In this document: one piece after another, positions 1,767 through 31,268 of the stretch
Layout of the letters: each line of letters begins with the position of its first letter
How positions within the stretch are numbered: position 1 is the stretch's first letter
NCBI GenBank assembly: GCA_003561515.1
Contig: PWWL01000330.1
Location: 1-37,002 of the forward strand
DNA length: 37,002 nt
Source of the DNA: Balneolaceae bacterium
GTDB lineage: Bacteria; Bacteroidota; Rhodothermia; Balneolales; Balneolaceae
Direction of reading: 5' to 3'
Position numbers and translations under genes: made by a program
The notes under the pieces: generated by a model
What the model was told of the DNA's origin: nothing
Seen by the model: only the letters and a program-made list of their open reading frames with translations
The model's database searches: none

Positions 1767-1886
1767 GTTTTCTGGCGGAAGAAATCGAAATAAGTGGCAG
1801 TTACAATTGAATGTTCCCGCCAAAATACATACTCTCAAAGCCGAATGAAACGAAGATTGAATAAATCAATGTAAAGGAGCTTACCA

Positions 1887-2796: not shown

Positions 2797-2852
2797 GATA
2801 GCCCTGGAAGGATAGTGCTGAACTCTTAACGTATTCATGGCCCATTACCATA

Positions 2853-2880
2853 AATCAACAATCAACAATCAACAATCACC
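2853..2880. repeat. Second heptanucleotide tandem repeat, 4 copies, abutting a start codon
   Basis: Three AATCAAC units are followed by one AATCACC unit, ending 6 bp before the ATG at 2887. The array therefore occupies the place where the ribosome-binding site of the threonine aldolase gene should be, and no Shine-Dalgarno-like sequence is seen there. Copy-number change would alter leader length or promoter spacing but not the reading frame. It has a different unit from the array at 2741 in the same gap. Confidence 0.9.
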
Positions 2881-2886
2881 AATTGA

Positions 2887-13743: not shown

Positions 13744-15999
13744 TTAGCCCTCGTAACAGAAATTCTCTTTTAGTCCGCCGGCCATGAGGCTGAACGTTCC
13801 CGGTTCAAGAATTGGCTTGCCATTCTCATCGGGGTAGGAGAGATGATCGGGGGTTATAGTGAAGCTCATCTTTGCGGACTTTCCGGGCTTAAGGCTTACC
13901 TGTTCAAAATGCTTCAGTTCCTTCACGGGCCTTGAAATCCGTCCCTTATGGGCAGAAATGAACCATAACACGGTTTCTGTGCCTTCCCGGCTGTCGGTGT
14001 TGGTAACCGTGATCTCTGCGGTTAAAGTACCTTTTTGCAAAAGTGTTTTGGTGCCGAGCCTGAACCGGGAATACCGGAATGTAGTATAGCTCAGGCCAAA
14101 TCCGAACGGATATGGGGTGTAGCTATCCTCTTTCTGAATAATCTGGTTGGCATTGTCAATGTCGAAATGGTAGATGCTGCTCTTCTTGTGGTTGTATGGG
14201 AGAAAATGGTTCGGGTGCACCGGGTACGAGAACGGAAGCCTCCCGGTTGGATTGAACCTGCCGCTGATGATACCCGCAATCGCTTCTGCCCCTTCAAAGC
14301 CCGGCAGGCCTGCAAAAAGCATGGCGTCCGAATCTTTAATCTGTTCAGTTACAATGAGCGGCCGGCCCGAAATCAGCACAAACACGAGCGGGGGCTGCGC
14401 TTTCGAAAGAAGCTTCAGCTCGCCGGCCTGACTCTCCGGCAGGCGTAAGTCGTTAATGTTGCCGGCAAACTCACAATAGGGCTCCTCGCCGCCGGCGTAA
14501 ATGAGCAGGTCGAAGTCATTCAGCATGGCAACGAATTCTTTTTGTTCGCTCTGTGAGCCGGAAAGGCCGGGAACATCATTACACCCAAAACAAGTGACTT
14601 CCGCACCGGGAAATTCGCTGCGGAGAGCGTCAAACAGCGTGGGCATCTGCTCCGGAAAACGGGATTCTTCGGCTCCCTGCCATGTCAGCGTCCAGCCGCC
14701 GCAAAAGTTACGTTTACTATTGGCGGAGATGCCGAATAACCCGATGCGTTTAGGTTTGGCAGCAGGAAGAACATCATCGTGGTTCTTTAGCAGAACCATA
14801 GAATCGCGGGCGGCCTCGAGGGCTTTCTTTCTGTTATCGGGGCTGCCTGCGTTTACGGGTGCAGTATCGGGCGGATAAGGATGCTCGAAAAGCCCCAGCT
14901 CAAACTTGATGCGGAGAACCCTTCTCACCGATTCATCGATTCGTTCTTCGGTAATCCTTCCTTCTTCGACCAGTTCCAGAAGAGACTCATTAAAATCGAG
15001 ATGGAGAGGGGTCATGCTAACATCGATGCCGGCCTCAACCGCAGCAAAGGTGGCCTCCTTGAAATTTTGGGCGGTATGGTGAAAATCTTCCAGCTTACCG
15101 ATGTCGTCCCAGTCGGTAATCAACACGCCTTCAAAACCCATGTCTTCGCGAAGAAGCCGGGTCATCAGGGTATAGGAAGCAACTACGGGGATACCACTGA
15201 TCTCACCGGCGTTGGTCATAATTGTCTTTAGTCCTGTATCAATCGCTTTCTGGAATGAAGGGCGATGAAATTCATGAATCTGCTGCATCGATAAATGCAC
15301 CGGAGTTCGATCGCGTCCGCTTCTTGGATCTGAGTAACCGATAAAGTGTTTAGCGGTGGCAGCCTGCCTGTGGGGCAGCGTTTCGCTGCAGTTCTGAAGT
15401 CCATCCACATTGGCAGCGCCCATTTCGGATGCAAGGTGTGGATCTTCGCCATAGGTTTCCCAGAAACGTGGCCAGAGAGGATTTACGCCAAGGTCGAGTA
15501 CGGGGGCAAATATCCAGTGGTGGCCAAGTTCGGCCGATTCAAGCGCCGTCACTTTTCCGGTATTGCGGGCATGCTCGGGATTGAAAGTGGCCCCGAGATT
15601 GATGTTGTGCGGAAAGACGGTGGCTCCCTCAAGGTAGCTGGCCCCATGGATATGGTCAATTCCATAGATGATCGGGATGCCCAGCCGGCTTTCTTCGACG
15701 GCAATTCGGGTCAGTTTGGTCATGAACCTGTGCCAGGTTCGGGCAGGAACGGCCTCCCCGTTCAGAAACGATCCAATATGGTGGTTCCTGATTAAGTCGC
15801 GAGCTTTTTTTAGGTCGAGCTCAATATCTTTTTGTTCGCCGGTTGTGTTGATGAGAGTAACATCAAGCTGCGTCATCTGACCAATTTTCTCACGGAGCGT
15901 CATGCGGCTCAGTAAGTCCTCGATACGTTTTCCAATCGGGTGGTCAGGATTCTTGTAATATGAGGGCCGGACTTGATTCTTTATCCGTATATCCGCCAT
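13744..15999 (-). CDS. Glycoside hydrolase family 3 beta-glucosidase, cytoplasmic
   Basis: The 751-residue protein has the three GH3 parts. An N-terminal TIM barrel contains IYGIDHIHGASY, KHFIGYSDPRSGRDR and the nucleophile motif LITDWDD with Asp296. An alpha/beta sandwich contains YAGGEEPYCEFAGNINDLRL with the likely acid/base Glu. A C-terminal fibronectin-III-like domain is also present. There is no signal peptide, so it should act in the cytoplasm, removing terminal glucose from imported beta-gluco-oligosaccharides. It starts 29 bp after the lacI-type regulator stop, almost certainly in one transcript. Linkage preference (beta-1,3 versus 1,4) is inferred from the locus, not visible in the protein. 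Confidence 0.93.
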   Translation of the reverse strand: MADIRIKNQVRPSYYKNPDHPIGKRIEDLLSRMTLREKIGQMTQLDVTLINTTGEQKDIELDLKKARDLIRNHHIGSFLNGEAVPARTWHRFMTKLTRIAVEESRLGIPIIYGIDHIHGASYLEGATVFPHNINLGATFNPEHARNTGKVTALESAELGHHWIFAPVLDLGVNPLWPRFWETYGEDPHLASEMGAANVDGLQNCSETLPHRQAATAKHFIGYSDPRSGRDRTPVHLSMQQIHEFHRPSFQKAIDTGLKTIMTNAGEISGIPVVASYTLMTRLLREDMGFEGVLITDWDDIGKLEDFHHTAQNFKEATFAAVEAGIDVSMTPLHLDFNESLLELVEEGRITEERIDESVRRVLRIKFELGLFEHPYPPDTAPVNAGSPDNRKKALEAARDSMVLLKNHDDVLPAAKPKRIGLFGISANSKRNFCGGWTLTWQGAEESRFPEQMPTLFDALRSEFPGAEVTCFGCNDVPGLSGSQSEQKEFVAMLNDFDLLIYAGGEEPYCEFAGNINDLRLPESQAGELKLLSKAQPPLVFVLISGRPLIVTEQIKDSDAMLFAGLPGFEGAEAIAGIISGRFNPTGRLPFSYPVHPNHFLPYNHKKSSIYHFDIDNANQIIQKEDSYTPYPFGFGLSYTTFRYSRFRLGTKTLLQKGTLTAEITVTNTDSREGTETVLWFISAHKGRISRPVKELKHFEQVSLKPGKSAKMSFTITPDHLSYPDENGKPILEPGTFSLMAGGLKENFCYEG

Positions 16000-16028: not shown

Positions 16029-17072
16029 TTATGAGTAATACTTATTGTAGACATTGGCAAATTCTGTCGAGCTTTCTCTGATGCTGAGAGAAACCGGAAC
16101 AAGACTTGTGTAGCCGGTGTGTAAATTTTCAGTGCGTTTTTCCAGTCTGTTGAAAATCAGTTCAAGGGTCTTTTTGCCAAGCAGCTGGTAAGGTGTATGT
16201 ACGGATGTGATGGTAGGTGTGTATAGCTCGCAGGTTGGAAGGTCATCATAGCCAATCACTGCTACATCCTCTGGTATGTGTATACCGTCGCGTATGGCAC
16301 TATGCATAAATCCGAGAGTCTGTCCGTCATTACTGCAAAATATAGCTTCCGGTTTATCTGCCAGCGATTGAAATTCCTTATAAGCGTCTTTTCCTCTCTG
16401 AAAAGAGTAGTCACCGCTGAATTGCCAGGTAAGTTCCATGTTATCGGAGGCATTGATAAAGTCGATAAACCCGCTTTTTCTAAGCATGGCTTCCGACTGT
16501 TTAACGGGCCCCTGTATTATTCCAAGCTTGCTGAAACCTCGATCTTCAAAATGGCTGGCTGCAAGAAATCCGCCTCTGTAGTTATCGAAGGTCACGGTGT
16601 CCATAACCGGGTTTGCAATCGGAGCAATTGATACGAGCGGAAAGTCATCCGATACTATGTCAATCAGCTGTAAATAATCAGCGGCTTTAAATTCGGGAAG
16701 GAAAATTACGGCAGCATCGTAGAATTTTCTGTCCAGTTCGGAAATAATCTGGTTAACCGGCGTTGAGCTATGGCTGATACTAATGAGGCTCATTCTGGCT
16801 TTTGTATCGCGTGTCGACAGATCGAATCCCTCAAAAAGGGAAGCAAAAAATTCTCCGGTAAAGTGCCGGGTAATCATGGCTATGTTAATATTCTTACGCA
16901 GCTCAACCGGGGTATGAATATTCATGAGAGGGTAATTTAATCTGTGCGCGCTCTCAAAAATCTTCCTTTCATTCTCTTTACTGATTTTCCCGGTACGAGA
17001 AAGGGCCCTGGAAACGGTAGAGATCGACAATCCCGTATCTTCTGATATGTCTTTAAGTGTGACCTTTACCAT
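16029..17072 (-). CDS. LacI family transcriptional regulator of the glucan locus
   Basis: The 347-residue protein has an N-terminal LacI helix-turn-helix (VTLKDISEDTGLSISTVSRAL, residues 4-24), the hinge helix region ending AHRLNYP (48-54), and a periplasmic-binding-protein-like sensor domain with FDNYRGGFLAASH and the dimer/ligand region AVIGYDDLPTCELYTPTITSV. Such regulators usually bind CG-centred palindromes and release DNA on binding a sugar inducer. A matching palindrome lies 6 bp before its start codon, suggesting autoregulation. It is cotranscribed with GH3 and divergent from the glycosidase-barrel gene, so it probably controls both arms. Inducer unknown, likely a laminari-oligosaccharide or glucose. 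Confidence 0.93.
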   Translation of the reverse strand: MVKVTLKDISEDTGLSISTVSRALSRTGKISKENERKIFESAHRLNYPLMNIHTPVELRKNINIAMITRHFTGEFFASLFEGFDLSTRDTKARMSLISISHSSTPVNQIISELDRKFYDAAVIFLPEFKAADYLQLIDIVSDDFPLVSIAPIANPVMDTVTFDNYRGGFLAASHFEDRGFSKLGIIQGPVKQSEAMLRKSGFIDFINASDNMELTWQFSGDYSFQRGKDAYKEFQSLADKPEAIFCSNDGQTLGFMHSAIRDGIHIPEDVAVIGYDDLPTCELYTPTITSVHTPYQLLGKKTLELIFNRLEKRTENLHTGYTSLVPVSLSIRESSTEFANVYNKYYS

Positions 17073-17624: not shown

Positions 17625-18605
17625 ATGAAACTAAAGAAACTACTTTCTTGTCTCCTGAGCATCAGTTTACTTACAGCAATATCTGTAAATGCTCAATCGC
17701 AACAAATTGAGCTTCAGGAGAGCGAAGACGGATGGCGTCTTCTTGTTGACGACGAGCCGATGATAATAAATGGTATGAACTGGGATTATTTCCCGATTGG
17801 TACCAACTATATGTACAGTCTCTGGAATGAATCTCCTGAGTTTATACGCGAGGCGCTCGATTACGAGATGGGCCTGCTACAGAATATGGGCGTAAACGCG
17901 ATCCGGGTGTATACCGGGATTTCACGAGAATGGATTGAGTACATTTACGATAACTTCGGTATTTACACCATGCTCAATCACTCTTTTGGAAGGTACGGTG
18001 TCGATCTCGATGGTGTGTGGATGGCCAATACGGAATATTCAGATCCAAGGGTTCAGGAACTTCTGTTACGAGAAGTAAATGAATTGGTAGAGGAATTCGA
18101 TGGCACAAGAGGTTTGCTGCTCTACCTGCTTGGAAACGAGAATAATTACGGCCTCTTTTGGGGCGGCGCCGAGACCGAAGACATTCCTGTAGTAGACAGG
18201 CAGTCAACAATACGGGCGCGTTCCATGTATGAGCTTTTCAATGAAGCCGCCGTGTCGATGAAAAACATCAGCGACGATATTCCGATTGCAATATGTAATG
18301 GTGACTTATTGTTTATGGATTTAGTTGTAGAGCTGGCACCCGACATAGACATTTTCGGCATTAACGTTTACAGGGGAGAAACATTTACCGATCTCTTCGA
18401 CAGGGTTGCAAACGAGTATGGCAAACCAGTATTGCTTACAGAGTTTGGTTCTGATGCTTTTAATGCACGAACCAATCAGGAAGATCAGCGTATGCAGGCA
18501 CACTACAAGCGTTTGAACTGGAAAGACATTTATTCTCACGCTGCCGGTTTGGGTCGTGCGCAAAATTCTATTGGAGGTTTTACCTTCCAGTTCAGCGATG
18601 GATAG
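17625..18605 (+). CDS. Clan GH-A glycosidase domain, 5' part of a glycosidase-beta-barrel fusion cut by an internal TAG
   Basis: The start at 17625 gives a clean signal peptide (residues 1-23, ending VNA-Q). Residues 30-326 form a TIM-barrel glycosidase related to GH2/GH5/GH72-type clan GH-A enzymes: NGMNWDYFPIG, NAIRVYTGI, LNHSFGRYG, the acid/base motif LLGNENN with Glu172, INVYRG, and the nucleophile motif LLTEFGSDAF with Glu273. The frame stops at TAG (18603-18605) right after FQFSDG, but the sequence goes on in the same frame as WKYGQTVDLDV, the natural continuation of this fold. A TGG codon there would read FQFSDGWWKYGQ, so a single G-to-A change is the simplest explanation. Beta-1,3-glucan is the likely substrate from context. 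The exact GH family is not certain. Confidence 0.8.
   Translation: MKLKKLLSCLLSISLLTAISVNAQSQQIELQESEDGWRLLVDDEPMIINGMNWDYFPIGTNYMYSLWNESPEFIREALDYEMGLLQNMGVNAIRVYTGISREWIEYIYDNFGIYTMLNHSFGRYGVDLDGVWMANTEYSDPRVQELLLREVNELVEEFDGTRGLLLYLLGNENNYGLFWGGAETEDIPVVDRQSTIRARSMYELFNEAAVSMKNISDDIPIAICNGDLLFMDLVVELAPDIDIFGINVYRGETFTDLFDRVANEYGKPVLLTEFGSDAFNARTNQEDQRMQAHYKRLNWKDIYSHAAGLGRAQNSIGGFTFQFSDG
18603..18605 (+). other. In-frame TAG interrupting the glycosidase-barrel fusion
   Basis: This is the only stop in a frame that is otherwise open from 17625 to 20768, 1048 codons. TAG serves as the ordinary stop for the dehydrogenase (2739), the MNT gene and the third GH17 gene (31266) in this window, so a genome-wide reassignment is unlikely. 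Confidence 0.9.
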
Positions 18606-20768
18606 TGGAAATATGGACAGACCGTTGATCTGGACGTTCACAATACCGAGGCCTCCTGGGCGAACGCCGGTTATCAGTGGGATTATGTTGAAGGCGAAAA
18701 TAATATGAATGAAGAGTGGTTTGGAATTACCGCTAAAGGGCCAACCACGCTGGATGGGTTCTACGAATTATTCCCGCGAGCTGCTTATTACGTGATTAAG
18801 GAAGCGCACGAATTCAATCCCTATGCACCGGGAACAAACTTGTCTGATCTTGAGCGTCATTTCGACGGCATTTCTATCACCGGCGCAATGTTACAGGCCA
18901 GGGGCGATAAGGCAGCTCTTCAAACTGAACGCCTGAGCAGAATCAGGCTAAGCAGGCTCACTACCGAGTTCACAACATTCAGCACAGGCGGAAGCAAGTT
19001 AACCACTCCGGATGAGAATGACCCAAACGTACGGCAGTTTCCCAACAAGCAGGGATTTGATCACATGCAGTCTATTTACGTTGGCGTAGAAGCGGAGCCT
19101 TCGGCGAATGTAAGAGCCAATGTAGAGTTCAATATTCTCGGCAACGTAGCCCAAAATCCGATAGATGAAATATTCTATGAGAACAGGGGAAGGCCGGTAG
19201 AAGTAATGGGTGTATTCGGGGAGGAAACGATAGCATCTAACAATCGTATACAGCTTTACAGGGCCAGCTATGAATGGAATACACGCTGGTTCAATCTTGA
19301 AGGATTCTATCGTACAGGTCACTACCATTGGGCTTATGAGGGCGATTTTTTCAATCTTTATCCGGAAGCTAACTATGGTCCTCAGATAGACATTTACAAC
19401 GGTGTCGCACCCTTTGGATTCGAAGCCGAATTCAAGCGTGAGCTATCCGGTTTGAAAATGGCCTTTGGCCCAGAGTTGTGGTGGGGTGCCAATCCGGCTG
19501 TATTGCTTAAATACACGAGAAATATCGGCAACACAACCTTTACCGGTGTGTATCACGAGGATCTTGAAAGACAGGCCGAAACAATATCTTCTTTTGCAGT
19601 TCCACAGCCACAAACCAGGCGCGTAACACTTCATGCCAACAGGGAGTTTGGTAACTTCGAAATCGATTTGGGTGGTATTTGGGGCGGTCGTCCACTGGTA
19701 GGCCGTGAGTTTCAGATTTATCGCGAGTATGCCGACGGCGACTTCGATATTTTTGTTGACGAAATCAAGCCGGAAGATAACTGGGGAGGTAAGATCAAGC
19801 TTTCCTACATGGGCGGTAACTTTAACTGGTATGCACAATCTGCTCTTATGGGGCTTGTTGCATCAGGCGGAGCCGACCAGACAATTACATTTACCGGCTG
19901 GCGTCTGAAAGACAGCGGCAGCGGCAACCAATTTCATGTTCTTTCCGGATTTACGGTTCAGATGGGTCAATTCCAATTTGCGCCCAACTTCCTTTACCAG
20001 GAGCCAATTGAAGGCCCGATCCCGTCAGGTGTGGATGCGCCAGGAAGGCCACGTAACATTTTAGATGATCCGTTTGTGGTAAGAGGCAACCGTGAGACGA
20101 TAGCAGGTGAGCTTTTAATTACTTACGATCCAACGCCCGAAACATGGATGTATGCCTGGGACAGCGACAGAATTGAGGATGCCGCCTTTGCATTGAGTGC
20201 CGGATTCGTGTACCGTCATCACCCAACCACTCAGGATGCTGCGGTAGGTATTTTACCTGACGGAAGAAGCGCATTTCCTTTTGACGGTGCTCCTCCCGCA
20301 CGGGATCTTTGGGAAGTGCATGCGAGAGTTGTGTCGAAGCCAACAAGTAATTTTGGTATTATAGCCAATATTTATGGTGGCGAAGCCGAGGCCAACGGCA
20401 GCGATGACAGGCTCATAAACAGGTACGGTTCCGAAATTCGAATGGTTTACAACAATCTCATGCTCAATTCTTTCGTGAGAGTAAACGATTGGGGAGCATA
20501 CGATTATCACCGTGATTTCAACCTGACATTTCCTTTTCAGTTGATGGCCGATTTCTCGATGACATTAGGCTCACCCGATTGGATGATGGAACCAAGAACC
20601 CGTATTGGAGTGCGGGGCACGTACCGTACACTTAATGAATTTTCGCCGCGATTTGCTCCTGCAGCAGCGTTGGATGTAAATGGTGAAATTCTGCCCGACC
20701 CTGACCTCTCCGGTTTTAGCAACGGAAGCGAGTGGGAGTTCAGAACCTACATCCAGATTAATATTTAA
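18606..20768 (+). CDS. Outer-membrane beta-barrel domain, 3' part of the glycosidase-barrel fusion
   Basis: This is read in the same frame directly after the TAG. The first internal ATG is at 18705, so a gene caller would start there, giving 687 residues without any signal peptide. Residues just after the stop finish the glycosidase domain (through LFPRAAYYVIKEAHEFNPY). From about DGISITGAMLQARGDKA onward the protein is a long series of amphipathic beta strands with many aromatic residues and short turns, such as NIEFNILGN-like, FNLEGFYRTGHYHW, KIKLSYMGGNFNWYAQ and EIRMVYNNLMLNSFVRV. It ends in a strand EWEFRTYIQINI, as porin-like barrels do. I infer a substrate channel or enzyme anchor. Without readthrough this half would lack an export signal. 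It ends 23 bp before the next gene. Confidence 0.72.
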   Translation, partial: WKYGQTVDLDVHNTEASWANAGYQWDYVEGENNMNEEWFGITAKGPTTLDGFYELFPRAAYYVIKEAHEFNPYAPGTNLSDLERHFDGISITGAMLQARGDKAALQTERLSRIRLSRLTTEFTTFSTGGSKLTTPDENDPNVRQFPNKQGFDHMQSIYVGVEAEPSANVRANVEFNILGNVAQNPIDEIFYENRGRPVEVMGVFGEETIASNNRIQLYRASYEWNTRWFNLEGFYRTGHYHWAYEGDFFNLYPEANYGPQIDIYNGVAPFGFEAEFKRELSGLKMAFGPELWWGANPAVLLKYTRNIGNTTFTGVYHEDLERQAETISSFAVPQPQTRRVTLHANREFGNFEIDLGGIWGGRPLVGREFQIYREYADGDFDIFVDEIKPEDNWGGKIKLSYMGGNFNWYAQSALMGLVASGGADQTITFTGWRLKDSGSGNQFHVLSGFTVQMGQFQFAPNFLYQEPIEGPIPSGVDAPGRPRNILDDPFVVRGNRETIAGELLITYDPTPETWMYAWDSDRIEDAAFALSAGFVYRHHPTTQDAAVGILPDGRSAFPFDGAPPARDLWEVHARVVSKPTSNFGIIANIYGGEAEANGSDDRLINRYGSEIRMVYNNLMLNSFVRVNDWGAYDYHRDFNLTFPFQLMADFSMTLGSPDWMMEPRTRIGVRGTYRTLNEFSPRFAPAAALDVNGEILPDPDLSGFSNGSEWEFRTYIQINI

Positions 20769-20791: not shown

Positions 20792-22192
20792 ATGAACGAA
20801 AATATCTTAAATAACACCAAACGTACGATACTGGCAAGCGTGTTGCTCATGTTCATTGCAGCAGGTTGTGAACGCTCAGTAGATGGATTGTCGGAACCGG
20901 ACTTTCCCGCAAACCCAGAGGTATTCATTGATGGTTTCAGCCCCGGGCTCAATTATCTTCCTTACGAAGATTCAAGAGCGGATGCTTTCACCGTTGATAA
21001 CCAAACATTCTTTGGCATCAGAGGTGCTTCAATGCGGTTTGATGTGCCTAATTTTGGAGATCCGGGGGGTGCTTTTGCAGGTGCCATATTCAGGGATGAA
21101 AATGGTGGAAGAAACCTTACATCATTTAATGCCCTTACATTTTATGCCAAGGCATCAAATGCAGCTACATTAGGAAATATCGGATTTGGACAGGACTTTC
21201 TCGGGAATCAGTACGAAGTTTCTATCGATGGATTGAGACTGACGACCAACTGGAGGAAATATGTTATTCCTGTGCCCGATCCATCTTTCCTTACCGCGCA
21301 TCAAGGGCTGCTATGGTATGCCGCCGGTCCTGAGGACGGAGATGGTTTTACCTTTTGGTTGGACGAAGTGCAGTACGAAAGTCTCGAATTGGCTCAGCCA
21401 CGGCCATCAATTATGGGCGGCGAGCAAAGCCCACAAACTATTTTTGTTGGTGCTAGCACCGCTGTAACAGGTCTTTCGTATACGGCAAATCTGCCTGACG
21501 GCCGGGATGTAACCGTAAATGCCGCTCCTGCATATTTCACATTTAATTCATCAAATACTAGTGTTGCCACGGTAGATGAAAATGGGCGTGTGTCAGTAGT
21601 TGGACAGGGTACAGCTCAAATCACGGCTTCTGTTGGTGGGGTTAACGCAAGCGGTGCATTGCTAATTAATTCACTTGGAGCTTTCCAGCCCGCACCAACT
21701 CCAACGGATGATCCTGCCGATGTAATTTCTATCTTCAGTGATGCTTACGAAAACGCTCCTGTAGATTTTTACAATGGCTTTTACGCACCGTTCCAAACCA
21801 CTACATCCAATGACTTTGAAATAAACGGAAATAATATTTTGGGTTATGAAAACTTCAACTTTGTTGGAATTGAGTTTAATCAAAATGTACCAACCATTGA
21901 TGGCAGTGAGATGACTCACCTGCGAATGGACGTTTTCTTCCCTGATGATATACCGCCAAATTCAGCGCTGGGCATTAGGATAGTGAACGATCTCGGGGGT
22001 AACGAGACATCGGTACGCACGGTAATCTCGCCACAGAATGGTCTGGTTTCGGGTGAGTGGATCAGTGTTGATTTCGATATCACAGGATTAGCAGACAGGT
22101 CACAACTCGGCCAAATCATACTGGATTCAGATTCCGGACCGGGACTGCAGGGATCCACTCTGTACGTTGATAATATTTACTTACGCAGATAA
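20792..22192 (+). CDS. Surface lipoprotein with carbohydrate-binding-like domains and a Big_2 domain
   Basis: The signal peptide ends in the lipobox IAAGC (Cys26). The 466-residue protein then has an N-terminal beta-sandwich (about 45-205, ending DGFTFWLDEVQYE, a common closing strand of galactose-binding-type carbohydrate modules). A bacterial Ig-like Big_2 domain follows (about 210-293, with TVDENGRVSVVGQGTAQITAS). The C-terminal module runs from about 310 to 466, starting SIFSDAYENAPVDFYNGFYA and ending STLYVDNIYLRR, like the binding modules attached to GH16 laminarinases. No catalytic motif is seen. It most likely captures glucan on the cell surface, taking the place of SusD/SGBP proteins. 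It lies in one operon with the fusion gene and is followed by a strong terminator. Confidence 0.8.
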   Translation: MNENILNNTKRTILASVLLMFIAAGCERSVDGLSEPDFPANPEVFIDGFSPGLNYLPYEDSRADAFTVDNQTFFGIRGASMRFDVPNFGDPGGAFAGAIFRDENGGRNLTSFNALTFYAKASNAATLGNIGFGQDFLGNQYEVSIDGLRLTTNWRKYVIPVPDPSFLTAHQGLLWYAAGPEDGDGFTFWLDEVQYESLELAQPRPSIMGGEQSPQTIFVGASTAVTGLSYTANLPDGRDVTVNAAPAYFTFNSSNTSVATVDENGRVSVVGQGTAQITASVGGVNASGALLINSLGAFQPAPTPTDDPADVISIFSDAYENAPVDFYNGFYAPFQTTTSNDFEINGNNILGYENFNFVGIEFNQNVPTIDGSEMTHLRMDVFFPDDIPPNSALGIRIVNDLGGNETSVRTVISPQNGLVSGEWISVDFDITGLADRSQLGQIILDSDSGPGLQGSTLYVDNIYLRR

Positions 22193-22266: not shown

Positions 22267-23103
22267 ATGAGAGTTGCTCTAATCATTCCACTATTGTTTG
22301 GTGTCATAACATTTATTTCGTCGGGTTGTGCTACAAACAATGAACCAGAAGCAGTCAGTGAATTCAGCGAGCTCATATGGCAGGATGAATTTGACACAGA
22401 TGGACCTGTAGACCCTGATCGCTGGACATTTGATTTAGGCACTGGTGAAGCAATCGGCTTGCCGGGGTGGGGCAACAATGAACTGCAATATTACACCGAC
22501 AGGCCCGAAAATGTACGTGTGGAAGATGGAATGCTTCACATTACGGCGAGGCAGGAGACGATTGAGAACTCTTCTTACACATCGGCAAGAATACTGACAA
22601 GAGGGTTGTTTGAAACTACCTTTGGGCGGTTTGAGGCCAGTATTAAGCTGCCTTTCGGCCAGGGGATATGGCCGGCATTTTGGCTTCTTGGTGACGATTC
22701 GGGAGGAACGGTGATATGGCCGCAGATTGGTGAAATCGATATTATGGAATATCGGGGGCAAGAACCGCGGGTAATTCATGGAAGTGTACATGGGCCGGGT
22801 TATTCAGCCGGCGCTGCAATTACGGCAAGATATACACTGCCGCAGGGTAGATTTGATACTGACTTCTACATCTTCGCGATAGAGTGGAAGCCCAATTCCA
22901 TAAAGTTTTTTGTAAATGATATCATGTACAATGAGATCACCCCGGACGATGTGACCGGAGAATGGGTTTTCAACGATAATACTTTTCACATCATTTTGAA
23001 CGTAGCGGTTGGAGGAACGTTTGTTGGTCCGGTATCGCCGCAAACACCATTTCCACAAACCATGCAAGTGGAATATGTACGGGTTTACGGCTGGGATGGC
23101 TGA
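22267..23103 (+). CDS. GH16 endo-beta-1,3-glucanase (laminarinase) lipoprotein
   Basis: This 278-residue protein has a lipoprotein signal with lipobox ISSGC (Cys21) and a single GH16 catalytic domain. LIWQDEFDTDGPVDPDRWTFD starts the beta-jelly roll, and WGNNELQYYT and FGRFEASIKLPFGQGIWPAFWLL line the cleft. The catalytic motif GEIDIMEY gives nucleophile Glu156, helper Asp158 and acid/base Glu161. The extra Met in E-I-D-I-M-E is the laminarinase-type spacing, as opposed to the E-I-D-I-E of lichenases. It probably cuts laminarin at the surface into oligosaccharides. There is no attached binding module. That job may fall to the lipoprotein at 20792. Confidence 0.95.
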   Translation: MRVALIIPLLFGVITFISSGCATNNEPEAVSEFSELIWQDEFDTDGPVDPDRWTFDLGTGEAIGLPGWGNNELQYYTDRPENVRVEDGMLHITARQETIENSSYTSARILTRGLFETTFGRFEASIKLPFGQGIWPAFWLLGDDSGGTVIWPQIGEIDIMEYRGQEPRVIHGSVHGPGYSAGAAITARYTLPQGRFDTDFYIFAIEWKPNSIKFFVNDIMYNEITPDDVTGEWVFNDNTFHIILNVAVGGTFVGPVSPQTPFPQTMQVEYVRVYGWDG

Positions 23104-23161: not shown

Positions 23162-23392
23162 GTGTCAATTAGCTTCGAAAGTGTTAATAACGAGTCCTGG
23201 TTTAAAATTTCAGACCATGATAAGCTTCGTCCTTTTTTCATGAGCATTGTCAGTGATTCTAATCACTGGCTGTTCATCTCAAGTAATGGGGGCCTCAGTG
23301 CGGGGCGAAAAAATCCTGAGTATGCGCTCTTTCCCTACTACACAGACGATAAACTCACAGAGCTTGCCCACACACCGGCAGCAAAACAGTGA
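23162..23392 (+). CDS. 5' fragment of the beta-1,3-glucan phosphorylase gene (frameshifted)
   Basis: This 76-codon frame starts at GTG 23162 and has no ribosome site. It encodes the N-terminal segment of the phosphorylase: SISFESVNNESWFKISDH, MSIVSDSNHWLFISSNGGLSAGRKNPEYALFPYYTDDK. It ends at TGA 23390 after AAKQ, while the remaining protein continues in the -1 frame from 23389. Adding one A to the run GCAAAACAG would give AAKTVIHVKVDGK and join the two frames into a protein of about 1139 residues. No in-frame ATG exists upstream (a stop lies at 23132), so GTG is the only plausible start. Confidence 0.75.
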   Translation: MSISFESVNNESWFKISDHDKLRPFFMSIVSDSNHWLFISSNGGLSAGRKNPEYALFPYYTDDKLTELAHTPAAKQ

Positions 23393-26300
23393 TTCACGTA
23401 AAGGTTGATGGAAAAGATCACGTCTGGGAGCCATTCAGTGAGTTCTTTGCCGGCCAATATCAAACTACGCGGAATCTTTACAAAAACCGGCTGGGCAACA
23501 AAATCATGTTTGAAGAGATTAATCATGATCTCGGGCTCACCTATCGCTACCAGTGGAATTCCAGCAATCTGTATGGTTTTGTTAGAAAGTCTGAGCTTAT
23601 GAATCACTCGGGCAGCGAACTTCGGATTTCGATATTAGACGGGATCCAAAACATATTGCCTTACGGGGTTGAGCCAGATATGCAGACACAGACAAGTAAC
23701 CTGGTGGATGCATATAAGAAAAATGAGCTTGTACCGGAATCAGGACTTGGAATCTATGCACTTAGCGCAATCATCGTAGACAAAGCGGAACCAAGCGAGG
23801 CGCTGAAAGCCAATGTAGCATGGTCGCTGGGTCTCGATAACCCTGACTATCTGATATCCTCACAGCAGATTGAAAAATTCAGGAAAAAAGAGCCTATCGA
23901 GCAGAAGGATGTCGTAAAAGGAGAGAAGGGAGCCTATTTTTTGCAGGCGGATTTCAATCTCTCCACAGATAGCAATAAATCATGGAAAATTATTGCGAAC
24001 GTCAATCAGAACCATCCTCAAATCATAGAGCTCACGCACAGTATCAAAACTGACAACGATCTTGAGGCAAAAATTGAAGAAGACATTGAAAACGGTTCTG
24101 AAAAGCTTAGGGAGTTAATTGCCGGCGCCGATGGCATGCGTTTAACTTCAGATCCGCTCAAGGATGCACGCCATTTATCTAATGTGCTGTTCAACATTAT
24201 GCGCGGCGGTATCTTTGATAACAACTACCAAATTGAGAAGCACGACCTGTCATCCTATCTGGAAAATGCCAACAAGGAGGTGTATACCCGAAATCGCGAG
24301 TTCATAGACGCGCTGGATGAGGTTTTCGATCGACATGAACTGATCTCGAAACTTGAGGACAGCAGCTACCACGATCTGGTGAGGCTTTGCACAGAGTATC
24401 TTCCGCTGAAGTTCAGCCGAAGGCATGGTGACCCGAGCCGGCCATGGAATTATTTCACCATCAATACCCAGAGCGAAATTGACGGTTCTAAAATTCTCGA
24501 CTACGAAGGAAACTGGAGAGATCTGTTCCAAAATTGGGAAGCTTTGGCGCACTCATATCCCGGTTTTATAGACGGCATGATTTTTAAGTTTCTGAACACC
24601 TCTACTTTTGATGGATACAATCCATACCGCGTAACCAAGGGTGGATTTGATTGGGAAACGATTGAACCTGATAACCCATGGTCTTACATCGGGTACTGGG
24701 GTGACCATCAAATCATTTATCTGTTAAAGCTCCTCGAGTTTTATCAAATGCACGATCCGAACGCGATTGTGGATCTTTTTGGGAAAGATCTTTTTGTTTA
24801 CGCGAATGTACCCTATCGAATAAAACCTTACGAGGCTATCGCAACCGATCCAAAGAATACGATCGATTTCGATGAAGAAAGTGATCGTGCCATCCGGAAT
24901 CGCGTAGCCCAAAAAGGGGCAGACGGTGCCTTGCTCGAGAATCAGCAAGGAACAATACACAGGGTGAACTTCCTTGAAAAAATTCTTGCCACCACGCTTG
25001 CAAAAATTTCAAATTTCATTCCGGAGGCGGGAATTTGGATGAACACGCAGCGTCCCGAATGGAATGATGCGAATAACGCATTGGTGGGCAACGGTGTGTC
25101 TATGGTTACTCTCTATTATCTCCGAAGATTCCTGAAATTTTTTGAGGGGCTGCTTGAGGGTACTGACGCAGATGAAGCTATGATCTCCGAAGAGCTTCAT
25201 GAACTATTTACCGACTTGCAGGAGAGTATGGCTAGTCATAAAAATCTGCTTGAGGGCAGCTTTAGCGATGAAGACCGAAAGCGGATCACCGACTTATTAG
25301 GCCAGGCAGGCAGCAAGTACAGAATACAGGTCTACGATCACGGTTTCAGCGGAAAGAAAACCGTGCTGAAACTGGACGAATTTTCAGCTTTTATCGAAAC
25401 AGCACTGGCGTTCATGGAGCAGTCGATTGAGGCCAACAGGAGGGACGACGGACTCTACCACTCATACAACATTATGAGCATGGAGGAGGACGGCATTACG
25501 GTCTCTTACTTAAGCGAAATGCTTGAGGGACAGGTGGCGATACTCAGTTCAGGATATCTTGACACGGATGAGGCAGTGAGCGTGCTTGATGCTTTGCGAA
25601 ACAGCTCTCTGTACAGGGAAGATCAGAACAGCTATATCCTTTATCCGAACAAAGAGCTGCCTCGATTTCTTGATAAAAATCATATTTCAAAAGAGTCTGT
25701 CCAAAAGTCGGCGCTGCTTAAAAAGCTTGCTGATGATGGAAACAGACAGATAATCGCAGAAGATCTTCACGGTGAGTATCACTTTAACGGTAACTTCAGA
25801 AATGCGGGAGATGTTAAAGCAGCTCTTGCAAAGCTGAAGGGAAGCAGATATGAGGATCTTGCAGAACAGGATGGAAAGAATGTCTTGAAGATTTTTGAAC
25901 AGGTCTTTAATCATAAGGCTTTCACAGGCAGATCAGGCACCTTTTTTGCGTATGAAGGACTTGGTTCCATCTACTGGCACATGGTTTCCAAGCTATATCT
26001 GGCAGCTGCAGAAGTTACCTATGAAGCGATGAACAGTAGTGATGCCTCAGAAGAAGCTCGCAGGGAATTGCTTAACCACTTTTATGAAATAGGTGATGGT
26101 ATTGGAATCCACAAATCACCGGAGGTTCATGGAGCATTTCCCACAGACGCATACTCACACACTCCGGCTCATCGCGGCGCCCAGCAGCCGGGCATGACCG
26201 GGCAGGTGAAGGAGGACATCCTCGCATCACTGTACGAACTTGGAGTGATCGTCGAAAACGGTGTGCTTGTGTTCAATCCCGTAATGCTGCGAAAATCCAG

Positions 26301-26580
26301 TTTTCGGGATCAAAAAGGTAGCCTTGCTTTTATCCGGCACGATCTAAATAAAGACGTGCTCAGTATATCTTCCGGTACCTTGTGTTTTTCATACTGCCAG
26401 CTGCCTGTTATATACAGTATCGGCCGTGATGAAAAACTGGAGATCACACATAAAGATGGAAATATAACAACAGAAAACACCCTTCGGCTTGATGGGGTCA
26501 TGAGTTCTTCGGTTTTTCGAAGAACAGGGGAAATTGAAATGATCAGAGTAACCCTTCAGGAAGACAGGTTAATAACATAA
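23389..26580 (+). CDS. GH149-like beta-1,3-oligoglucan phosphorylase (GH94-related), main part
   Basis: These 1063 residues, with the 76-residue part in front, give a protein of about 1139 residues without signal peptide, the size of GH149 and GH161 phosphorylases and larger than GH94 enzymes. The region IPEAGIWMNTQRPEWNDANNALVGNG matches the catalytic-loop pattern of this clan, with Asp560 of this part as the likely acid. A second conserved area is HGAFPTDAYSHTPAHRGAQQPGMTGQVKED, a probable phosphate/substrate loop. The enzyme would split beta-1,3-gluco-oligosaccharides with phosphate to glucose-1-phosphate in the cytoplasm. The family is assigned from size, motif and locus, with GH161 as the main alternative. 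The GTG at 23389 is a frame opening, not a believable start. It lies 11 bp before the GH17 lipoprotein gene. Confidence 0.8.
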   Translation: MIHVKVDGKDHVWEPFSEFFAGQYQTTRNLYKNRLGNKIMFEEINHDLGLTYRYQWNSSNLYGFVRKSELMNHSGSELRISILDGIQNILPYGVEPDMQTQTSNLVDAYKKNELVPESGLGIYALSAIIVDKAEPSEALKANVAWSLGLDNPDYLISSQQIEKFRKKEPIEQKDVVKGEKGAYFLQADFNLSTDSNKSWKIIANVNQNHPQIIELTHSIKTDNDLEAKIEEDIENGSEKLRELIAGADGMRLTSDPLKDARHLSNVLFNIMRGGIFDNNYQIEKHDLSSYLENANKEVYTRNREFIDALDEVFDRHELISKLEDSSYHDLVRLCTEYLPLKFSRRHGDPSRPWNYFTINTQSEIDGSKILDYEGNWRDLFQNWEALAHSYPGFIDGMIFKFLNTSTFDGYNPYRVTKGGFDWETIEPDNPWSYIGYWGDHQIIYLLKLLEFYQMHDPNAIVDLFGKDLFVYANVPYRIKPYEAIATDPKNTIDFDEESDRAIRNRVAQKGADGALLENQQGTIHRVNFLEKILATTLAKISNFIPEAGIWMNTQRPEWNDANNALVGNGVSMVTLYYLRRFLKFFEGLLEGTDADEAMISEELHELFTDLQESMASHKNLLEGSFSDEDRKRITDLLGQAGSKYRIQVYDHGFSGKKTVLKLDEFSAFIETALAFMEQSIEANRRDDGLYHSYNIMSMEEDGITVSYLSEMLEGQVAILSSGYLDTDEAVSVLDALRNSSLYREDQNSYILYPNKELPRFLDKNHISKESVQKSALLKKLADDGNRQIIAEDLHGEYHFNGNFRNAGDVKAALAKLKGSRYEDLAEQDGKNVLKIFEQVFNHKAFTGRSGTFFAYEGLGSIYWHMVSKLYLAAAEVTYEAMNSSDASEEARRELLNHFYEIGDGIGIHKSPEVHGAFPTDAYSHTPAHRGAQQPGMTGQVKEDILASLYELGVIVENGVLVFNPVMLRKSSFRDQKGSLAFIRHDLNKDVLSISSGTLCFSYCQLPVIYSIGRDEKLEITHKDGNITTENTLRLDGVMSSSVFRRTGEIEMIRVTLQEDRLIT

Positions 26581-26591
26581 ACCAGATTGTC

Positions 26592-27893
26592 ATGAAAAAA
26601 ACAACCGCATTCTTAATTCCGGTAATTATTTTAAGTATGACCATGTTCTCATCATGTGCCGAGCAGCCTGCTCACGACTTTTCTTCTATCAGCATCACTG
26701 CTGAGGAGATACTGGGTGATCCGAATTATCAGGCAATTTCATTTGGAGCCTACAGGGAAACCACCCGTGATATTCAGCCAACCATTCCGCAGATAAAAGA
26801 GGATCTGATGATTCTGCATGCGATGGGAATCAGACTGCTGCGAACCTACAACGTACACTACGATGAAGCTGAAAACCTTCTGAAGGCAATAAGGGAGATC
26901 AGGGAAGACGATCCAGACTTTGAGATGTATGTGATGCTGGGAGTGTGGATTGATGCGAAGAATGCATGGACCGATGAACCGGAGCGAATCCGCGACCAGG
27001 ACGACCCTCGAAACGAAGTTGAGGTTGCACGCGGTGTAGAACTGGCTCAGCAGTACCCTGATATTGTAAAGATAATTGCTGTGGGAAACGAAGCCATGGT
27101 GCACTGGGCAGAGGAGTATTGGGTTGAACCAGCCATTATACTGAATTGGGTTAATCATCTGCAGGATCTGAAAGCGGCCGGTGAACTTCCCGAGACACTT
27201 TGGATTACCTCATCCGATGATTTCTCTTCTTGGGGCGGCGGTGGTGAAGAATATCACAAGCCGGAGCTGGATGAGCTTATCAGGGCAGTAGACTTTATTT
27301 CGATGCACACATATCCCATGCACAATACGCATTACAACCCCGACTTTTGGGGAGTTCCTGAGGATGAATATCACCTGAGCGATTTGGAGAAAATCCACTC
27401 TGCAATGGACAGATCGCTGGAATTTGCCGTAAATCAATTTAATGCGGTTGTAGAGTATATGCGAAGTATTGGAGAAGACAAGCCGGTTCACATCGGAGAA
27501 ACGGGTTGGGCTACGGTTTCGAATGAGTATTATGGGCCGGATGGTGCCCGGGCGACCGACGAATACAAGTCGGGTATGTACTATCAGATGATTCGTGATT
27601 GGTCGGATGAAAACGGAGTGACCGTCTTTTATTTTGAGGCGTTTGATGAACCATGGAAAGATGCACAAAATCCGTTGGGTTCTGAAAATCATTTTGGCTT
27701 GATTAACCTTCAGGCACAGGCCAAATATCCGATCTGGGACTTGGTGGATGAGGGGATTTTTGAAGGTTTGACGCGCGATGGACAGCCAATCACCAAAACG
27801 TACAATGGAGACAAAGATGCACTGATGGAAGATGTACTTGTACCTCCTACAAATGCCGAAATTCAGGAGCGATTGCGAAGAGAAGCACAATAA
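26592..27893 (+). CDS. GH17 beta-1,3-glucanase or glucanosyltransferase, lipoprotein
   Basis: The signal peptide ends in the lipobox FSSC (Cys22), so this 433-residue enzyme is membrane-anchored outside the cytoplasm. The GH17 TIM barrel shows IRLLRTYNVH, the acid/base motif AVGNEAMVHW with Glu167, DFISMHTYPMHN, and the nucleophile motif HIGETGWAT with Glu303, then FYFEAFDEPWKD. Family members hydrolyse or transglycosylate beta-1,3-glucan. A C-terminal tail of about 40 residues follows the barrel. It is followed after 15 bp by a GPH symporter, so the product is likely handed to uptake. Hydrolase versus transglycosylase cannot be decided from sequence. Confidence 0.93.
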   Translation: MKKTTAFLIPVIILSMTMFSSCAEQPAHDFSSISITAEEILGDPNYQAISFGAYRETTRDIQPTIPQIKEDLMILHAMGIRLLRTYNVHYDEAENLLKAIREIREDDPDFEMYVMLGVWIDAKNAWTDEPERIRDQDDPRNEVEVARGVELAQQYPDIVKIIAVGNEAMVHWAEEYWVEPAIILNWVNHLQDLKAAGELPETLWITSSDDFSSWGGGGEEYHKPELDELIRAVDFISMHTYPMHNTHYNPDFWGVPEDEYHLSDLEKIHSAMDRSLEFAVNQFNAVVEYMRSIGEDKPVHIGETGWATVSNEYYGPDGARATDEYKSGMYYQMIRDWSDENGVTVFYFEAFDEPWKDAQNPLGSENHFGLINLQAQAKYPIWDLVDEGIFEGLTRDGQPITKTYNGDKDALMEDVLVPPTNAEIQERLRREAQ

Positions 27894-27908: not shown

Positions 27909-29339
27909 ATGTCTGCCCAAACAACATCACCCCGGGGGAAGGTACCTTTTTCACAAAAGGCAGCATTCGGCTCCGGTCACCTCGTACTGAACCTACTGCC
28001 TGGTGCACTAGGTGTATTTATGTTTTTTTTGCTCACGGCCTTTGGTATGGATCCCTTTCTTGCGGGTTTGTTGGGAGGACTGCCAAGATTATTCGATGCC
28101 GTATCTGATCCCATAATGGGATTTATTTCAGATAATACAAATTCCCGGTGGGGACGCCGGCGACCATACATATTTGTTGGCGCTATATTATCGGGAATCT
28201 TTTTTATTCTGTTATGGCAGCTCGATGAGACCAATAGCGTAACCTACAATTTCTGGTATTTCCTGATCATGTCTTTGGTTTTCCTGGTGGGTAACACCAT
28301 GTTTGCAACTCCATTGATTGGGCTTGGTTATGAAATGACGGAAGATTATAAAGAGCGCACAAAGCTCATGGCTTTTTCTCAGACCATAGGCCAGATTGCC
28401 TGGATGATTGTTCCTTGGTTTTGGGTACTTGTTGCTAACCCAAATCTGTTTGAAAGCCAGGCCGTAGGTGTGCGGCAGCTATCAATAATAGTAGGGGTAA
28501 TCTGTTTGCTGCTTGGATTGCTGCCGGCAATTTTCTGTAAGGGGATAGACAGTTCCAAAATAGAGAACAGGAAAGAACTTTCGTTCGGAACCATATTTTC
28601 AAATCTGAAATCTCTCCTTGAGGGAATGGTACTTATTGCCAAGAATAAACCCTTTGCCAGGTTATGTGGCGCTACGTTTCTTGTATTCAACGGGTTTCAG
28701 ATGGTAGCCTCTTTCAGCTACTTTATTATCGTTTTTTACATGTTCAATGGCGATTACGGGCTGGCGGGAAATTGGCCTGCATGGTTTTCTACCATAACTG
28801 CCGTAACTACTGCTTTTCTTGTTATTCCAATTGTATCCAAAATCGCTGATGTCTTTGGTAAAAAAAATGCATTCATTATTTCCACTGCCATTTCAATTGT
28901 CGGGTACATTCTAAAGTGGTGGGGATTCAGTCCCGAAAATCCATGGCTGATGTTTATGCCTATCCCATTCATGGCATTTGGCCTTGGTGGGTTGTTCACA
29001 CTTATGCTGAGTATGACGGCAGACGTTTGCGACCTCGATGAACTCGAAAATGGGATGCCTAGAAAAGAAGGTACGTTTGGTGCCATATATTGGTGGATGG
29101 TGAAAGTTGGTCAAGCGATTGCACTTGTACTTGGCGGAGCTGTACTTAGTCTTGTGGGCTTTGATCAAAATGCGGCCACTCAATCAGTATCTACCCTCAC
29201 GAACCTCCGTTTGGCAGATATTGTAATCCCGGCTCTTACCGCCGGTTTGGCTATTTGGGTAATGTGGGGTTACGATCTTACCGAAGAAAAAGCCGAAGAA
29301 ATACAAAAAGAACTTTTCAAAAGAAGGGGACAACTATAA
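27909..29339 (+). CDS. GPH-family sugar:cation symporter, copy 1
   Basis: This 476-residue, roughly 12-helix inner-membrane protein belongs to the glycoside-pentoside-hexuronide (MelB-like) symporter family. Diagnostic segments are the N-terminal AAFGSGHLVLNLLPG, the cation-site helix LPRLFDAVSDPIMGFISDNTNSRWGRRRPYI with its conserved Asp residues, and the mid-protein GYEMTEDYKERTKLM. It probably imports laminari-oligosaccharides with Na+ or H+. It sits between the GH17 lipoprotein and two cytoplasmic GH17 enzymes. A gapless paralogue of equal length lies at 32406. Confidence 0.92.
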   Translation: MSAQTTSPRGKVPFSQKAAFGSGHLVLNLLPGALGVFMFFLLTAFGMDPFLAGLLGGLPRLFDAVSDPIMGFISDNTNSRWGRRRPYIFVGAILSGIFFILLWQLDETNSVTYNFWYFLIMSLVFLVGNTMFATPLIGLGYEMTEDYKERTKLMAFSQTIGQIAWMIVPWFWVLVANPNLFESQAVGVRQLSIIVGVICLLLGLLPAIFCKGIDSSKIENRKELSFGTIFSNLKSLLEGMVLIAKNKPFARLCGATFLVFNGFQMVASFSYFIIVFYMFNGDYGLAGNWPAWFSTITAVTTAFLVIPIVSKIADVFGKKNAFIISTAISIVGYILKWWGFSPENPWLMFMPIPFMAFGLGGLFTLMLSMTADVCDLDELENGMPRKEGTFGAIYWWMVKVGQAIALVLGGAVLSLVGFDQNAATQSVSTLTNLRLADIVIPALTAGLAIWVMWGYDLTEEKAEEIQKELFKRRGQL

Positions 29340-29410: not shown

Positions 29411-30322
29411 ATGTCATTTAGGTCAGAAAAATTTTTACGCTACAAGGGCACGCAGGTGCCTGAACAATTACGCATGTTGAAAGACATGTCAGAATCCGAA
29501 CTCGAAAAATTTTTACTTAAAATATTGAATGACGGGGTTCACGGATTTTGCTTCAGCCTTTACGAAGAGGGACAACAACCGGGCGATCTAATCACTGAGG
29601 AACAGATTAGAAGACGAATTAACATTCTGAAACCTCATACCGACTGGATACGGTCTTTTTCCTGTACAGAAGGCAATGAGATGATTCCAAGAATTGCGAA
29701 AGAAGCAGGAATGAAAACCCTTGTGGGTGCATGGCTTGGAAGAGAAGTTGATAAAAATAAAGAGGAGATCGACGGACTGGTTCAGCTCGCATCGGAAGGT
29801 TTGGTTGACATTGCCGCCGTAGGCAACGAAGTACTTTATCGCAATGACTTGAATGAGTCAGAACTGCTCGATTGCATCCGCGATGTACGATCGAGACTTG
29901 ATGAAGAGATACCCGTTGGTTACGTGGATGCTTACTATGAGTTCGTGCAGAGGCCGGCAATTTCGGATGCATGCGATATCATTCTTTGTAATTGTTATCC
30001 TTACTGGGAAGGTACACCCATTGAATACTCATTCGACCACATGCGGCACATGTACCAGCTTGCGATCGATGCCGGGAAAGGAAAACCGGTTGCAATAACT
30101 GAGACGGGTTGGCCAAGCCAGGGTGAAGGCTTAGGCGGAGCTGACCCCTCGCGAATCAACGCCATGAAGTATTTTATACAAACGCATCTCTGGGCGCTTG
30201 CGAACGATATTCAAACGTTCTATTTCTCCTCATTCGATGAGGACTGGAAGGTAAGTACCGAAGGTGATGTGGGCGCTTTTTGGGGAGTTTGGGACAGTAA
30301 AGGAAAACTCAAATTTGCCTGA
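29411..30322 (+). CDS. GH17-type enzyme without signal peptide (cytoplasmic), copy B
   Basis: The 303-residue protein starts directly with the catalytic domain. Motifs: WIRSFSCTEGN, the acid/base motif AVGNEVLYR with Glu140, ILCNCYPYWEG, the nucleophile motif AITETGWPSQGEG with Glu231, and FYFSSFDEDWKV near the end. Lack of any export signal places it in the cytoplasm, unusual for GH17, where it could trim or rearrange imported beta-1,3-oligosaccharides for the phosphorylase. It is the most divergent of the three GH17 proteins here. The next GH17 gene starts 4 bp after its stop, implying translational coupling. Confidence 0.88.
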   Translation: MSFRSEKFLRYKGTQVPEQLRMLKDMSESELEKFLLKILNDGVHGFCFSLYEEGQQPGDLITEEQIRRRINILKPHTDWIRSFSCTEGNEMIPRIAKEAGMKTLVGAWLGREVDKNKEEIDGLVQLASEGLVDIAAVGNEVLYRNDLNESELLDCIRDVRSRLDEEIPVGYVDAYYEFVQRPAISDACDIILCNCYPYWEGTPIEYSFDHMRHMYQLAIDAGKGKPVAITETGWPSQGEGLGGADPSRINAMKYFIQTHLWALANDIQTFYFSSFDEDWKVSTEGDVGAFWGVWDSKGKLKFA

Positions 30323-30326
30323 AGGG

Positions 30327-31268
30327 ATGAATACATTTAGCAGTCTGGGAATTGAGGAGGGGCGTGGTATATGCTACTCCGGATTCAGGCATGGCCAGTA
30401 TCCGGGAGGTGCAGCTCCTACATATGAAGAGGTGAAGGAAGATCTTTTAATTCTTCAATCAAAATGGAAATATCTGCGTCTTTATGATTGTGACCGGCAT
30501 GCGTTAACGGTACTCGATGTTATACGCAAAGAGAAGATGGATTTTAAGGTAATGCTGGGCATTTTTATTGAGGCTGAACAGAACAACCCAAACTGCCCAT
30601 GGGGCGGAGGAGTATTTCCGGACAAGCAGCTGGAAGCCAATCGTGAATTGAACGAGGGTAAAATCAGGAAACTGATAGAGCAGGCAAACAAGTATACCGA
30701 CATTGTTTTCTCGCTTTCTGTTGGTAATGAAGCTTGCGTCGGATGGACTGATCACTATGTACCGCCCGAAAGGGTATTAATGTATGCAGCGCAAGTAAAA
30801 GCGGAAGCGAGCCAACCGGTTACTTTCTGTGAAAACTATGAACCGTGGCACCACAGTCTGGAAAGTCTGGCAAATGAGCTGGATTTTATATCGATACATA
30901 CATATCCGGTTTGGGAGTACAAATCTATAAATGAAGCTCTCGACTACACCAGGGCCAATTATTATCCGGTGGCTGAAAAATATCCCAATAAACCAGTTGT
31001 TATTACAGAAGCAGGATGGACTACCAAGTCGAATGGTCGTGGCATAGATCCGGTGAACGTGAATGAAATTTTTCAAAAAATTTATTTTGAAAAACTGATG
31101 GCATGGGCCGATAGAGAAGGGATACTGACGTTTTTCTTTGAGGCTTTTGATGAACCATGGAAAGGTTCACCGGAAGCACTTGAGCCGGAAAAGCATTGGG
31201 GTCTTTATAAGGTTGATCGTACTCCAAAGCTCGTTATGCGCTCTTACCAAAGAGGGATGATGATGTAG
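30327..31268 (+). CDS. GH17-type enzyme without signal peptide (cytoplasmic), copy C
   Basis: I start at the ATG at 30327 (313 residues), which has a GAAGGG ribosome site and follows the previous stop by 4 bp. An ATG at 30264 would overlap the preceding gene by about 60 bp and add a non-homologous stretch. The GH17 motifs are YLRLYDCDRH, SLSVGNEACVGW with acid/base Glu135, DFISIHTYPVWE, VVITEAGWTTK with nucleophile Glu228, and FFFEAFDEPWKG. It is closer to the lipoprotein GH17 at 26592 than to its neighbour at 29411, as if derived from it by loss of the signal. No export signal. The stop is TAG. Confidence 0.9.
   Translation: MNTFSSLGIEEGRGICYSGFRHGQYPGGAAPTYEEVKEDLLILQSKWKYLRLYDCDRHALTVLDVIRKEKMDFKVMLGIFIEAEQNNPNCPWGGGVFPDKQLEANRELNEGKIRKLIEQANKYTDIVFSLSVGNEACVGWTDHYVPPERVLMYAAQVKAEASQPVTFCENYEPWHHSLESLANELDFISIHTYPVWEYKSINEALDYTRANYYPVAEKYPNKPVVITEAGWTTKSNGRGIDPVNVNEIFQKIYFEKLMAWADREGILTFFFEAFDEPWKGSPEALEPEKHWGLYKVDRTPKLVMRSYQRGMMM

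Follow-up and report, generated by a model that had tools for sequence, protein, structure and literature searches.

Laminarin, the algal form of beta-1,3-glucan, holds a large part of the carbon that is fixed every year. In Bacteroidota, the SusC/SusD pair is treated as the diagnostic glycan importer and is used in surveys to predict substrates (PMC6298971). Laminarin PULs with SusC/SusD were described as variant 1/B and for Formosa, Polaribacter and Muricauda; they contain GH16, GH149, GH17, GH30 and MFS genes and further binding proteins (PMC6246565, PMC6298971, PMC13188888). In a Formosa laminarin locus, Unfried et al. found an MFS-GH17 fusion, and no such transporter-CAZyme fusion was known to them in other bacteria (PMC6246565). 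Kuhaudomlarp et al. reported some Bacteroidetes GH149 CAZyme clusters without susCD; the passages of this paper on GH149 clusters make no mention of a fusion or of an outer-membrane replacement (PMC5827456).

Here we analyzed a window of 37,002 nucleotides, meaning the whole stretch of DNA, from a Balneolaceae bacterium. According to translation and predicted structure, the product of positions 17625-20768 (+) has a signal peptide, followed by a TIM barrel of clan GH-A and, at the C-terminal end, an outer-membrane beta-barrel. To our knowledge, no glycosidase covalently joined to an outer-membrane pore is known; the fusion would be the first. A description of a glycosidase fused to an outer-membrane barrel was not found in the literature covered, which included few subscription papers or preprints.

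The gene set is largely shared with the laminarin PULs. These use SusC/SusD, whereas here the fusion and a lipoprotein (LIP) would fill the outer-membrane slot and no TonB plug is present. Like the Formosa protein (PMC6246565), the fusion joins a glycosidase to a sugar transporter, here a putative one, in a laminarin-type locus. However, the Formosa protein combines a GH17 with a helical transporter of the inner membrane, while a GH157/GH158-like enzyme and a predicted beta-barrel of the outer membrane are combined here.

The fusion gene and its operon

As the sequence-only reading had claimed, a single frame with one TAG encodes the signal peptide, the glycosidase and the beta-rich half. This 1047-aa frame aligns over its full length, across the TAG, with homologues of 59-80% identity from many taxa. 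The beta-rich stretch is present from about residue 437, but its length is about 610 residues and not 650 as first estimated. A lipobox was found in 0 of 93 full-length fusions (the window and 92 homologues). The features of the locus are as follows.

13744-15999 (-): GH3 beta-glucosidase, no signal peptide (Pfam; N-terminus)
16029-17072 (-): LacI-type regulator, divergent from the fusion (Pfam)
17625-17694 (+): type I signal peptide of the fusion, ending in SVNA before Q, no lipoprotein signal (sequence)
17706-18815 (+): clan GH-A TIM-barrel glycosidase, residues ~28-397, acid/base E172, nucleophile E273 (profile, structure, alignment)
18603-18605 (+): in-frame TAG, codon 327, inside the enzyme domain; Trp in every homologue
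18816-18938 (+): helical linker, residues ~398-438, final third of low confidence (AlphaFold)
18939-20765 (+): predicted 24-stranded outer-membrane beta-barrel, residues ~439-1047 (AlphaFold, Foldseek, VIA, dyad test, strand/loop alternation)
20792-22192 (+): LIP, lipoprotein (IAAGC, then ERSVDGL) with Big_2, candidate surface glycan-binding partner (Pfam, lipobox)
22267-23103 (+): GH16 endo-glucanase lipoprotein, lipobox SSGC (Pfam, E 8e-23)
23389-26580 (+): beta-1,3-glucan phosphorylase of family GH149, no signal peptide (NCBIfam NF058639, 1586 bits, cut-off 1150)
26592-27893 (+): GH17 with lipobox (Pfam GH17, below cut-off; N-terminus)
27909-29339 (+): GPH/MFS sugar symporter 1 (Pfam MFS_2)
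29411-30322 (+): GH17, no signal peptide (Pfam)
30264-31268 (+): GH17, no signal peptide (Pfam, below cut-off)
32406-33836 (+): GPH symporter 2 (NCBIfam TIGR00792, below cut-off)

The neighbourhood described in the sequence-only reading was recovered with Pfam and NCBIfam, which gave GH3, LacI, GH16, GH149, two GPH symporters, three GH17 and a sugar porter, with no SusC or SusD among the window genes. The usual operon order in homologues is fusion, LIP as a surface-type lipoprotein, GH16, GH149, GH17, GH30 and MFS. LIP is the next gene after the fusion in 78/78 homologue loci; its PDB matches are mostly of the Big_2 type. In loci with at least 8 kb downstream, GH16 was found in 64/64, GH17 in 52/64, GH149 in 48/64, MFS in 47/64 and GH30 in 43/64. 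Judged by gene content, the operon is a complete beta-1,3-glucan route from the outside to the cytoplasm.

The window start of GH149 is uncertain. Its frame is open from 23353 (23353-26580), upstream of the listed GTG, the NCBIfam alignment begins at model position 82, and open frames of homologues have about 1140-1160 aa. The operon also encodes a 209-aa protein (31434-32063) that has a hydrophobic stretch near its N-terminus and matches neither Pfam nor NCBIfam families.

Related genes may already have been seen under other names. In the Muricauda laminarin locus, a conserved 'GH2' lies upstream together with GH16 and GH149, and GH17, GH30 and MFS come next (PMC13188888); a 'GH0' was reported beside GH149 in North Sea laminarin loci (PMC10108472). 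Both may be the fusion or its solo form; a barrel was noted in neither report.

Enzyme and barrel domains

The catalytic motifs proposed earlier were found at residues 170-173 (GNEN) and 272-275 (TEFG), and both Glu, E172 and E273, are invariant in 105 aligned rows. The top profile match was the GH158 endo-beta-1,3-glucanase 6pal (E 2.5e-5), and GH158 was also ranked first by Foldseek on the full model. In VIA, GH157 (9g4n, Z 28.1) scores as well as GH158 (9oro, Z 27.2), and GH157, GH158 and GH2 enzymes all lie within two Z units (26-28). The clan GH-A fold and the two catalytic Glu of GH158 are both present. Pfam GH2_C matches occur in 21 of 22 members (best E 2.5e-10); in the window, Glyco_hydro_2_C reaches 18.2-18.5 bits against a cut-off of 21, and the window protein has no match to an N-terminal GH2 domain and no space for one before residue 28. 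We call the enzyme GH157/GH158-like, a predicted clan GH-A member with no family assigned, which would presumably act on beta-1,3-glucan.

BuGH158 (6pal, PMC7157763) and LaGH157 (9g4n) share with the fusion enzyme the clan GH-A fold and the occurrence in beta-glucan loci. In all of them the acid/base follows strand 4 (GNE) and the nucleophile strand 7. However, GH158 and GH157 carry an Ig-like domain where the fusion enzyme has the outer-membrane barrel, the identity is only 14-18%, and the fusion enzyme has no curated family match.

Since the Foldseek and VIA lists for the full model contained mainly TIM-barrel enzymes, the barrel was folded alone. This AlphaFold model, built with 103 sequences, reached a pLDDT of 84.4 and a pTM of 0.82, and it predicts the C-terminal domain to be a closed outer-membrane barrel, as the sequence-only reading had expected. 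The Foldseek matches displayed for it are outer-membrane barrels. In VIA, porins with 16-18 strands cover about the first 475 barrel residues, siderophore receptors extend as far as 552, and the ushers FimD and PapC, with 24 strands, are the only ones to span the domain in full, from about 5 to 617. With a Z of 14.8, AlgE ranks with the best structural matches, level with OprD-type uptake porins. The domain belongs to no family of Pfam or NCBIfam, and a sequence search with the barrel profile gave no credible PDB match. The OprD/Occ family, chitoporin, LamB and AlgE resemble it as barrels that lack a plug and carry their long loops on one side, but they have 16-18 strands, no enzyme domain and no detectable sequence relation to the fusion barrel.

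In the model, 24 strands were listed. Even strands are mostly followed by turns of 2-6 residues and odd strands mostly by loops of 13-36, which places both the N and the C end on the periplasmic side. A closed, 24-stranded barrel with both ends periplasmic is thus predicted. The alternate-residue hydrophobicity difference in the dyad test was 2.25, compared to 1.40 +/- 0.20 in shuffled sequences (maximum 2.03 of 2000). At prediction level, the domain is closed and even-stranded with a membrane-facing dyad pattern, as is characteristic of outer-membrane beta-barrels. Conservation is higher for inward-facing (0.81) than for outward-facing residues (0.65). The long loops 563-596 (0.93), 616-624, 743-768 and 956-968 (0.95) are almost invariant. 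In most outer-membrane proteins long loops vary, and their near-invariance here points to recognition of a conserved ligand.

TonB-dependent transporters consist of an N-terminal plug domain and a 22-strand barrel. The fusion has no Plug match, the TIM barrel stands in the place of the plug, and 24 strands are predicted. Weak matches of the barrel HMM were rejected as homologues; they are SusC-like receptors and an unrelated 1177-aa protein, aligned over 30-60 residues. A 30-residue strand motif of the barrel has weak matches in SusC-like receptors of same-class genomes (L195 6405-9389, L196 7254-10139, L197 7258-10143), with E values of about 1e-4 to 1e-3 in a small search set; this may be no more than a strand pattern that both share.

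Confidence is lower for the full-length model (pTM 0.61, part of the linker below pLDDT 50), so we infer the placement of the enzyme below the pore from strand parity. The sequence-only reading had suggested that the protein may cut glucan and pass the product inward. This order finds no support, because in the predicted topology the enzyme lies on the periplasmic side, where it would cut after passage and not before.

Distribution of the fusion and its relation to SusC/SusD

A scan of one genome per species gave at least 585 confirmed loci. The best 80 of these have 59-80% identity over both halves and belong to Balneolota, Bacteroidota, one Calditrichia and one KSB1 bacterium. When the TAG is translated as Trp, 38 of 59 relatives' genomes contain a match to the 1047-aa protein; among the matches listed there, about 15 span both halves in one unbroken frame. 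In a phylum sample of 395 genomes, the barrel was present in 34, and a complete barrel without the enzyme was not found. Complete fusions in this sample have open frames of about 1046-1084 aa, except for the TAG-split window copy and copies hit by contig ends or broken frames. A divergent fused relative (L193, genome G481, 526-3345) encodes 940 aa up to the contig end, with an enzyme 46% and a barrel 33% identical; the family therefore reaches further. As far as these comparisons tell, the two-domain protein is ancient and strongly conserved, and hundreds of Bacteroidota and related bacteria encode it.

Complete homologues are all fused, and the alternative that the two halves are normally separate genes was dismissed, since solo enzymes nest inside the fusions. 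These solo enzymes have about 440 aa, and well-supported branches of the enzyme-domain tree force at least 5 changes between fusion and solo form. Several solo genes retain a short barrel remnant beyond the stop. From the nesting and the remnants, the barrel was most likely lost repeatedly, also in the closest relatives of the window protein. Several solo enzymes carry lipoboxes.

SusC and SusD were searched with HMMs seeded, from few sequences, in SusD neighbourhoods of the window's genome and later widened. Two clusters first taken as SusD and SusC (c6 and c7) turned out to be GH30 and a LuxR-type sensor. A SusCD pair was detected in 1 of the 80 homologue loci (L099, which has both fusion and SusCD). 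In the 395-genome sample, GH149 was found in 70 genomes and the fusion in 33 of these 70. The HMMs detected no SusC or SusD in the fusion-bearing GH149 loci retrieved from this sample. A Pfam search of the 41 unassigned long proteins of these fusion loci showed neither the SusC nor the SusD family in two or more of the proteins, where a single member could escape; 60 proteins of the fusion-negative loci gave 5 matches to Plug and 3 to SusD. However, many GH149 loci without the fusion show no SusCD nearby either, so its absence alone is weak and not diagnostic. SusD is present elsewhere in the genome of the window, and another SusCD could thus import laminarin.

More informative are five fusion-negative loci in which SusC/SusD, or SusD alone, adjoins GH16 and GH149. 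L186 (3106-10558) and L187 (3521-10944) have the order SusC-SusD-GH16-solo enzyme-GH149, L203 has SusC-SusD-GH16-GH149, and SusD was noted alone in L230 and in the contig-cut L181, as was done where the upstream part was cut or unclear. The solo enzyme occurs in 4 of the 5. About 10 other loci, some on short contigs, lack barrel, LIP and GH16 together, while enzyme, GH149, GH17 and MFS remain. This swap of SusCD and barrel gives the strongest argument that the barrel takes over the job of SusCD and that the enzyme works with the inner pathway. It agrees with the proposal of an alternative to SusCD, which fills the place of the fusion in several relatives. Of the overall reading, a conserved fusion in SusCD-free beta-glucan operons stands, but not cutting outside followed by passage inward.

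Possible role of the fusion and state of the window copy

We consider it probable that the fusion serves a SusCD-free beta-1,3-glucan operon as its entry step at the outer membrane, with the glucanase at the periplasmic exit. Surface LIP and the GH16 lipoprotein would bind and shorten the glucan outside the cell. Oligosaccharides would then pass the plugless 24-stranded barrel, where conserved loops and wall would do the selecting, and the GH157/GH158-like glucanase at the periplasmic mouth would trim the emerging chains. A periplasmic GH17 and a GPH symporter would follow, and finally GH149, GH17 and GH3 in the cytoplasm. We infer transport and its coupling to the enzyme for a barrel that is itself predicted, as are its strand count and topology. 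More tentative, and rather to be doubted at present, is an enzyme-coupled importer in which hydrolysis at the periplasmic mouth would keep import in one direction with no energy from TonB, and which many Bacteroidota would use in place of SusCD.

The order of N-terminal passenger, helical linker and C-terminal barrel is also that of autotransporters. The enzyme could be threaded through the barrel to the surface by type V secretion, and the barrel would be no uptake channel. Classical autotransporters have 12 strands, however, against the 24 predicted here, and no autotransporter family was matched in Pfam. Pore wall and loops are highly conserved and the enzyme survives without the barrel, which makes this explanation unlikely. 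That solo enzymes are sometimes lipoproteins indicates that a tether alone can suffice, and the barrel might carry no substrate and serve only as the outer-membrane anchor of a periplasmic glucanase. Yet 600 residues are costly for an anchor, conservation sits in the inward residues and long loops, and SusCD takes the same slot when the barrel is absent; we regard such a tether as improbable. Export porins work alongside periplasmic hydrolases, and the rank of AlgE among the structural matches would likewise suit a protein that trims or secretes self-made beta-glucan, in the manner of the export porins AlgE, PgaA and BcsC. This is very hard to reconcile with operons containing a phosphorylase, glucosidases and symporters, and none of the window genes was recognised as a synthase.

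If an entry step through the fusion is true, a conserved SusCD-free beta-1,3-glucan route would escape SusCD-based surveys, and the fusion would be a possible undescribed uptake mode for algal and fungal glucans. It is open to direct testing in culturable Flavobacterium and Chryseobacterium.

The TAG of the window copy corresponds to a column with Trp in all 105 aligned rows (the window query itself being read as Trp), and recoding was ruled out. Downstream of the TAG, pN/pS amounts to 0.175 in the comparison with L003 and to 0.220-0.222 in those with L004 and L005, at or below the values between intact copies, with the close pair L004-L005 excepted. The Trp column and the constrained sequence after the TAG argue for a recent stop or an assembly error. 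The TAG may be a local nonsense change or an assembly error, in a copy recently broken or misassembled. It falls within the enzyme domain, and the nearest relatives in the tree have no barrel, three or four of them retaining a short barrel remnant past a stop. It is therefore quite possible that the window gene is a pseudogene heading toward barrel loss like these relatives, which is compatible with a glucan porin in the family as a whole. On the other hand, the pN/pS after the TAG is not raised over most intact pairs, LIP and GH16 are intact in the window, and an error of the draft assembly is equally likely. Both forms occur together in genome G002, as a complete fusion (L005) and as a solo enzyme whose stop is followed by a barrel remnant (L175).
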